Under the pieces are notes generated by a model, which made no database searches, was not told the DNA's origin, and worked only from the letters and a program-made list of their open reading frames with translations. This document shows, in pieces, positions 57,006-57,837 of a stretch of DNA of 64,000 bases (position 1 is its first letter; every line of letters begins with the position of its first letter). This DNA is from Cognatishimia activa (GTDB lineage Bacteria > Pseudomonadota > Alphaproteobacteria > Rhodobacterales > Rhodobacteraceae). The stretch is from the NCBI RefSeq assembly GCF_026016445.1, contig NZ_CP096147.1, positions 780,501 to 844,500 on the forward strand, in the 5' to 3' direction. The position numbers and the translations under genes were made by a program.

Positions 57006-57051
57006 TTTCCCACGATTTCCCAAAATTCCTGTTGATTTCCATAAATTCCCA
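57006..57051 (-). promoter_or_regulatory. Repeat array 3: inverted-orientation TGGGAA/TGGAA boxes
   Basis: On the minus strand the boxes read TGGGAAT, TGGAAAT, AGGAAT, TGGGAAA, TGGGAAA; TTCC cores on the plus strand are at 57007, 57017, 57026, 57037 and 57046, spacings 10, 9, 11 and 9 bp. The spacing matches one helical turn and the box matches the MraZ consensus. It lies about 280 bp before mraZ and probably close to the transcription start. Confidence 0.6.
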
Positions 57052-57061
57052 TGGCATCCCT

Positions 57062-57288
57062 GTATTCAAGATGAGGACGGGAGTTAAGGGGCGCTAAAGA
57101 CCCCGAATAATAAAAATCCCAAGTCAGGTTTCATACAGGCCCCGCTTTCATCGAATTAAGAGATCCGGCGCGCGGGCGAGCAGACATCCCCCCAGGTGGC
57201 GCGCGCAGCTGGACATACCCCGCAAATGCGGGACGAGGGCGGCGAATTGGGCAGTGGCAGCAGCTCAATTCGCCGTTTCGTTTCTAGC
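57062..57288 (+). ncRNA. Candidate UpsM-like leader sRNA upstream of mraZ
   Basis: In Rhodobacter sphaeroides an abundant sRNA, UpsM, arises from the 5' untranslated region of the dcw message upstream of mraZ by early termination. The same position here is a G+C-rich, structure-prone, gene-free stretch after the box array: GGGG/CCCC at 57087-57103, GCGCGC segments near 57171 and 57200, CCCGC/GCGGG at 57219-57232, and a final 9-bp hairpin followed by GTTTCGTTTCT. Ends are approximate; identity rests on position and structure only, not on sequence alignment. Confidence 0.45.
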
Positions 57289-57300
57289 GGGGCGAATTGA
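57241..57300 (+). promoter_or_regulatory. Mutually exclusive hairpins (attenuator-like) before mraZ
   Basis: GGCGAATTG (57241-57249) pairs with CAATTCGCC (57266-57274), and the extended arm TCAATTCGCC (57265-57274) pairs equally with GGCGAATTGA (57291-57300), over 10 bp. The middle arm can join only one partner. The first fold is followed by GTTTCGTTTCT and resembles a terminator; the second covers that tract and could act as an antiterminator. The element ends 33 bases before the mraZ start. Confidence 0.65.
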
Positions 57301-57333: not shown

Positions 57334-57837
57334 GTGGCACGCAGATTCAGAGGTGAAAGCCACCACAAGGTGGATACGAAAGGCAGGGTGTCTATCCCGG
57401 CCTCTTTTCGCCGTGTGCTTGAATCTTCTGATCCCAACTGGAAATCCGGTGAAACGCCTGAACTTGTGATCGTCTACGGTGACCACCGCCGCAATTACCT
57501 AGAATGTTATACTATTGAAGCCATCGAAGAGGTCGATGATAAGATAGACGCGCTTCCACGCGGCTCGATGGAGCGTAAGATGCTGCAACGCCTGTTCCAT
57601 GGTCAGTCTTTCCCGACATCGGTTGATGAGACAGGCCGTTTGGTTCTGCCGGCCAAGCTGCGTCAGAAAATCGATTTGGATAAAGAAGCCTTCTTTATTG
57701 CTGCCGGTGACACCTTCCAGATTTGGAAGCCAGAAACCTATGAGGCAGAGGAGCTTTCCGCCACCGAAGAATGGCTGGATGAGCTGCCCGATGATTTTGA
57801 TCCGCTGATCTTCCTTGATCAGAAGTCGGAGAGCTAG
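57334..57837 (+). CDS. mraZ: Transcriptional regulator MraZ
   Basis: MraZ is the conserved DNA-binding regulator at the head of the dcw cluster. The 167-residue protein contains two SpoVT/AbrB-like repeats: FRGESHHKVDTKGRVSIPAS with FRRVLE in the first, and FPTSVDETGRLVLPAKLRQK in the second. The start is GTG (57334); its ribosome-binding site is poor (AGGA only two bases away, AGAAGG about 13 bases away), so translation may depend on leader structure. It is followed at three bases by rsmH. Confidence 0.96.
   Translation: MARRFRGESHHKVDTKGRVSIPASFRRVLESSDPNWKSGETPELVIVYGDHRRNYLECYTIEAIEEVDDKIDALPRGSMERKMLQRLFHGQSFPTSVDETGRLVLPAKLRQKIDLDKEAFFIAAGDTFQIWKPETYEAEELSATEEWLDELPDDFDPLIFLDQKSES

Follow-up and report, generated by a model that had tools for sequence, protein, structure and literature searches.

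The window, by which we mean the whole stretch of 64,000 nucleotides analysed here, carries the gene mraZ on its forward strand (57334..57837). This open reading frame has a GTG start and is identified by its relatives and by operon order as the first gene of the dcw operon. Its best MraZ relatives are those of Cognatishimia activa (96%) and C. maritima (97%), the genus is Cognatishimia, and the window MraZ is 89-97% identical to the best-ranked loci of the genus. The interval under study, 57241 to 57300, begins 93 bases and ends 34 bases before the start codon of mraZ at 57334.

Just upstream of the expected leader start, on the reverse strand at 57009..57061, repeats with a 10-base spacing are seen in the sequence: CCCA at 57009, 57019 and 57048, and CCCT at 57058. 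We take these to resemble the operator repeats of MraZ (TGGGN). Shuffle comparison shows them to be strongly enriched: 74 leaders contain 62 CCC[AT] pairs at the 10-base period, with at least one pair in 45 leaders, and 100 sets of mononucleotide shuffles contain 0.55 on average and never more than 3. This enrichment suggests autoregulation by MraZ on top of control by RNA.

The leader itself runs on the forward strand. Its putative promoter -10 and start region are placed at 57063..57075; our folds assume a start near 57072, and a start at 57066 would follow from the 268-nt length of the Rhodobacter sphaeroides leader (PMC5089854). The conserved element CAGGTTTCATACAGGC at 57125..57140 is the predicted pairing site of a partner RNA, as indicated by a profile of 70 genera, by its complement elsewhere in the genome and by co-folding. 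An A/U-rich stretch at 57155..57160 is, by analogy, the expected place of RNase E cleavage; counting the 130-nt 3' fragment of R. sphaeroides back from 57285 would put the cut at 57156 (PMC5089854, PMC6238624). Three hairpins follow: R2 at 57164..57213 with the C-rich loop ACATCCCCCCAGGTG, defined by alignment pairing and two-sided changes; the short hairpin R3, CCCGC/GCGGG, at 57219..57232, seen in the sequence and in the single-sequence fold; and the terminator-type hairpin R4 at 57240..57275 with the loop CAGTGGCAGCAG at 57252-57263, defined by conservation and two-sided changes. A short interrupted U-tract at 57276..57285, assessed from T-run lengths over 74 genera, is the expected 3' end of a small RNA of the UpsM type. 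The last element, a downstream copy GGCGAATTGA of the upstream arm of R4 (57291..57300), is judged incidental, being present in one of 84 leaders and not above shuffles over 74 genera.

Several sets of sequences were compared. The set of 84 leaders comprises the best 80 of 402 named relatives, three further genomes of the genus and the window; six loci of the genus, namely the window's own genome and five duplicates of named records, stand outside it. Alignment A2 contains 77 of these 84 leaders, seven with terminator regions identical to others having been removed. The genus set takes one place per genus among the leader-model matches listed and omits L098, L104 and L118, at which the script found no mraZ; in 14 of the remaining 73 no start codon was located, and there a fixed rule set where the sequence following the terminator was cut. 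The leader profile is based on 70 genera after exclusion of four divergent ones, and the comparison of RNA pairs on 68 genera, since six of the 74 partner sequences had no leader in the set. The leader covariance model was built on 57162-57285. Searches covered 196 genomes of the order sample, all belonging to the single family Rhodobacteraceae, and an even sample of 289 genomes of the class.

The upstream copy GGCGAATTG occupies 57241-57249, the arm TCAATTCGCC 57265-57274 and the downstream copy 57291-57300, and GTTTCGTTTCT is read directly from the window at 57275-57285. An earlier note on this DNA held that the arm pairs perfectly with either copy. This is correct for the downstream copy, with which the arm forms 10 Watson-Crick pairs, and not strictly so for the upstream one at 57241-57250, with which it forms 9 Watson-Crick pairs plus G57250-U57265. 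The upstream stem extends to G57251-C57264 and C57240-G57275, giving 12 pairs around the loop at 57252-57263. That this upstream pairing forms a terminator-type hairpin, as the same note had proposed, is borne out by its presence in all 84 leaders and by compensatory changes. In this set of the best 80 of 402 relatives plus four, 81 of the hairpins were recognized by script, three of them with only 5 pairs before a bulge; the three missed by the script have a variant loop, yet are paired in alignment A2. Among the 77 distinct sequences, 96.5% of alignment cells of R4 are paired and 7 of its 15 pairs show two-sided changes, and the corresponding values for R2 are 99.1% and 3 of 13 pairs. Together the R2 and terminator helices show 10 pairs with two-sided changes; shuffles average 5.1, and none of 500 reaches 10. 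In further genera the stem of R4 is made of different letters and has the same form. The hairpin is thus conserved by computation. A simple scan of the leader for promoters and terminators gave no excess over shuffles and did not report the R4 terminator. The longest T-run after the stem averages 3.6 over 74 genera; at the partner RNA's own terminator it averages 7.9 (74 loci). A tract as short and interrupted as that of the leader would fit read-through at a leaky terminator.

The loops of both hairpins are conserved as well. The 12-nt terminator loop CAGTGGCAGCAG recurs unchanged in 77 of 81 leaders and is better conserved than its own stem. An exact search for its 12-nt complement in 9 genomes of the genus found no conserved partner: the complement occurs at the leader in all 9, and otherwise in four scattered matches in three genomes. 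Pairing of this loop with the downstream stretch was set aside, showing no excess over shuffles in the genus set. The R2 loop ATCCCCCCAGGTG (57186-57198) is exact in 58 of 73 genera. Its match with G-runs after the terminator at first exceeded shuffles (mean run 5.67 against 5.20 in dinucleotide shuffles of 82 leaders); the excess disappeared when each genus contributed a single leader (5.08 against 5.16, the observed mean being reached by 79 of 100 shuffle sets), and the candidate was dropped. In the locus L156 (G000:C1:2717500-2720500), whose reading frame is presumably petA-like, an early conserved stretch is, apart from 3 mismatches, a complement of the R2 loop, and such a complement recurs in five genomes of the genus among the matches listed, with at most 3 mismatches. 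As it lies inside this frame, it was set aside as an RNA partner, and the stretch is probably kept for the protein.

The downstream stem has a very different distribution. Its 10-nt complement occurs in the window only; the other 83 leaders contain matches of 3-6 nt, as in shuffles, and the nearest relatives checked for the second stem are without it. The longest Watson-Crick match between arm and downstream stretch averages 4.35 over the 84 leaders against 4.33 in shuffles, and with one leader for each of 74 genera it averages 4.42, dinucleotide shuffles giving 4.57; the observed mean is reached by 90 of 100 shuffle sets. When forced in the read-through leader, the second stem is 17 kcal/mol worse and has a predicted probability below 1e-10, with the start assumed at 57072. 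The downstream arm is, moreover, made only once the polymerase has passed the U-tract, and this timing argues against a switch. We therefore regard a genuine attenuation switch between the two hairpins, in which downstream pairing would hide the U-tract and favour read-through or mark the read-through mRNA, as highly improbable even when restricted to the window species, although ten Watson-Crick pairs are possible there and the match is reached by 0 of 60 mononucleotide shuffles of the window's downstream stretch (1 of 60 with G-U pairs allowed), a match that was chosen by eye from 64 kb. Neither the 84 leaders nor the 74 genera show a conserved alternative pairing that excludes the terminator, and an antiterminator formed by the downstream copy was rejected on the conservation, shuffle and folding results. 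The earlier note's switch of competing hairpins is accordingly not supported, and of the two stems in which it advised looking for compensatory changes, the first is conserved and the second is lost. Given its lack of conservation, its shuffle-level match, its folding cost and its timing, the second copy most likely arose by chance in sequence that changes quickly.

The suggestion that this position equals the UpsM locus of Rhodobacter agrees with both anatomy and distribution. In R. sphaeroides, the 268-nt dcw leader contains a Rho-independent terminator that gives rise to the 206-nt sRNA UpsM (Weber et al. 2016, PMC5089854), and read-through of this terminator is estimated at about one in 100 (PMC5089854). 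RNase E cleavage of UpsM leaves a fragment of 130 nt (PMC5089854, PMC6238624), and R2-R4 are conserved among the Rhodobacteraceae compared by Weber et al. (PMC5089854). The leader described here lies directly upstream of mraZ in the window and in the 84 leaders, contains the R2 and R4 hairpins in 77 distinct sequences, and follows the anatomy of UpsM given in that paper (PMC5089854). Its distribution is family-wide, as the covariance model finds a match in 193 of 196 Rhodobacteraceae genomes, the other three remaining without one even under laxer filters. In the class sample 4 of 289 genomes match; all four are Rhodobacteraceae, which agrees with restriction of UpsM to this family, with the families of the 265 unlisted genomes not shown. 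No Rfam family matches the window at gathering score, the leader matches being below threshold.

Two further ways of setting read-through have been considered for such leaders. Weber et al. weighed a riboswitch-like refolding of R2 with R4, for which they saw no conservation (PMC5089854). Translation of a short leader peptide from a GTG in the terminator loop (57254) might also govern read-through; in the window a frame of 19 codons is open from this GTG, and a leader-ORF fusion in R. sphaeroides is reported to have weak activity (Weber et al., PMC5089854). The loop GTG, however, is found in only 57 of 74 genera and its frame varies from 4 to at least 100 codons, so neither the length nor the reading of the peptide is kept. 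A peptide from this codon was rejected as not conserved, and we consider this explanation extremely improbable.

A strongly conserved feature further upstream leads to a second RNA. Within the variable 5' region, the leader profile of 70 genera shows strong conservation at 57125-57140, and TTCATACAGGC is present in 67 of 73 genera. The genome contains a perfect 16-nt complement of 57125-57140 twice, once at the leader itself and once at G000:C1:1079027-1079042, and since the partner was found through its complementarity to the leader, this match in the window genome alone is not independent evidence. The first 14 nt have exactly two exact matches in each of nine genomes of the genus, one at the leader and one at a partner-type locus. 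The second place lies in a predicted RNA gene of about 75 nt with its own terminator (G000:C1:1079004-1079082). Upstream of this gene a promoter-like sequence is conserved; the gene itself comprises a hairpin, whose loop and 3' arm contain the complement, and a strong terminator, and the flanks differ. The locus precedes a reading frame of 274 codons; an overlapping frame of 81 codons on the opposite strand is a mechanical ORF only. The promoter-like pair consists of a TTGG-like element in 66 of 74 loci and a TATA-like element in 72 of 74, with a spacing of 19 in 61. The 40-nt core is identical in all 74 loci read, and the terminator part occurs in 43 distinct forms in the same loci.

This partner RNA is likewise family-wide. 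Its model, with 79 positions from the conserved start region to the U-run (mean 7.9 in 74 loci), describes a small RNA with its own terminator, comparable to one of about 72 nt, and finds a match in all 196 family genomes (E 0.01 or better). Six of these genomes have two matches, the second one in G354 being weak (E 0.0032). Six of the 289 genomes in the class sample match, four within the family and two outside it, the latter weakly (E about 4e-4). No Rfam family was found at gathering score. Like the partner, RyhB (RF00057; 22.4 bits against a gathering score of 55) and mmgR (suhB, RF00519; 22.2 bits against 41) are small RNAs with a 3' terminator; their weak full-length alignments lie below gathering score and agree mainly in the terminator, and we rejected the assignment to these or other Rfam families.

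Complementarity between the two RNAs is conserved across the genera. The longest complementary run averages 15.7 nt over 68 genera, against 6.2 nt with shuffled RNA (largest control 12), and is at least 10 nt in 65 of the 68. The exceptions are G301 and G457, in which a change in the site leaves a G-U pair, and G391, in which the site is shortened; the longest run of G457 is situated within R2, outside the site. For the window pair the predicted interaction is -23.5 kcal/mol, compared with -7.0 on average and -17.6 at the lowest in 60 shuffles. The predicted duplex covers 57125-57154 with gaps and ends beside 57156, the cleavage place expected by analogy; five further pairs are predicted at the assumed 5' end. 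In addition, CGAGCAG in R2 (57177-57183; 70 of 73 genera) finds its complement CTGCTCG in the partner's invariant 5' part; the order of the two motifs fits a second pairing block, which the co-fold did not use.

These sequences could instead be kept for other targets or for Hfq binding, the complementarity not serving to pair with UpsM. The two RNAs do not covary, because the partner core stays constant where the leader site varies, and this invariance, independent of the leader site, must have further causes; the rpoE mRNA is a published target of StsR (PMC8307010), the R. sphaeroides RNA considered below. Such an account leaves aside that the matched element is among the best-conserved parts of an otherwise variable 5' region, that runs of at least 10 nt persist in 65 genera, and that pairing of StsR with UpsM has been reported in R. 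sphaeroides (PMC8625941), and we find it improbable. Control of the leader in trans by this RNA is likely, as judged from the sequences. The earlier note's trans-acting partner RNA is thus supported as to the existence of a conserved complementary RNA, and its place has to be moved, as the match is at 57125-57154 and not at the pair of hairpins.

According to papers that build on the StsR work, StsR is a 72-nt RNA of R. sphaeroides under RpoHI/RpoHII that pairs with UpsM and with the dcw leader (PMC8307010, PMC8625941, PMC11354728). Its pairing is reported there to give access to RNase E and to affect read-through, and dcw mRNA and growth to decrease (PMC8307010, PMC8625941, PMC11354728). Going by this published description of StsR, the partner RNA is probably its orthologue.

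Taken together, the interval is probably the 3' end of an UpsM-type dcw leader, in which a leaky terminator is combined with a StsR-like partner that opens the leader to RNase E under stress. Start, termination, read-through, cleavage and stress control are modelled here on the work in R. sphaeroides. Transcription would start at about 57072, and R2, R3 and the hairpin at 57240-57275 would fold. Most polymerases would then halt at the U-tract, which is short and interrupted, and set UpsM free, and a minority would continue into mraZ and the other genes of division. The RNA of about 75 nt, probably the StsR orthologue, would pair with 57125-57154 beside the A/U-rich site and expose both UpsM and the dcw leader to RNase E, lowering division-gene expression under stress; its expression, its binding to the leader and its effect on division are likewise expected by analogy. 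The second copy of GGCGAATTGA would have no necessary part in these steps.

UpsM, its terminator and its partner are already known from R. sphaeroides, and what is new is this member and the data on wider distribution. The titles and abstract openings found in literature searches on UpsM, StsR and Rhodobacteraceae, which do not cover the content of the primary StsR paper, announce no family-wide survey of the partner RNA. The frozen 40-nt body of the partner, its complement in nearly all dcw leaders and the leaky terminator make it rather probable that the two-RNA circuit is fixed across Rhodobacteraceae, stress control of division being ancestral to the family and not a Rhodobacter trait. If so, a body frozen to this degree would point to more numerous further targets. 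The distribution suggests that a leaky terminator and a partner RNA controlling the division operon, two RNAs that Rfam does not recognize at gathering score, are common to the whole family, and such control can therefore be tested in many cultured relatives.

Compared with known systems, the leader shares with terminator/antiterminator attenuators and riboswitches a terminator that is partly read through, read-through in the window being predicted. Unlike these, it has no conserved antiterminator, and the one alternative arm found is situated past the stop site. The partner RNA resembles StsR in size, in having its own terminator, and in being complementary to the UpsM leader immediately before the place where RNase E is expected to cut (PMC8307010, PMC8625941). 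From R. sphaeroides UpsM the leader differs in belonging to another genus, and the window species has an extra arm copy that its relatives lack. Both share the place before mraZ, the long leader, the R2-R4 layout and an occurrence across Rhodobacteraceae (PMC5089854), as well as a terminator with read-through into mraZ, which in Cognatishimia is expected by analogy (PMC5089854).
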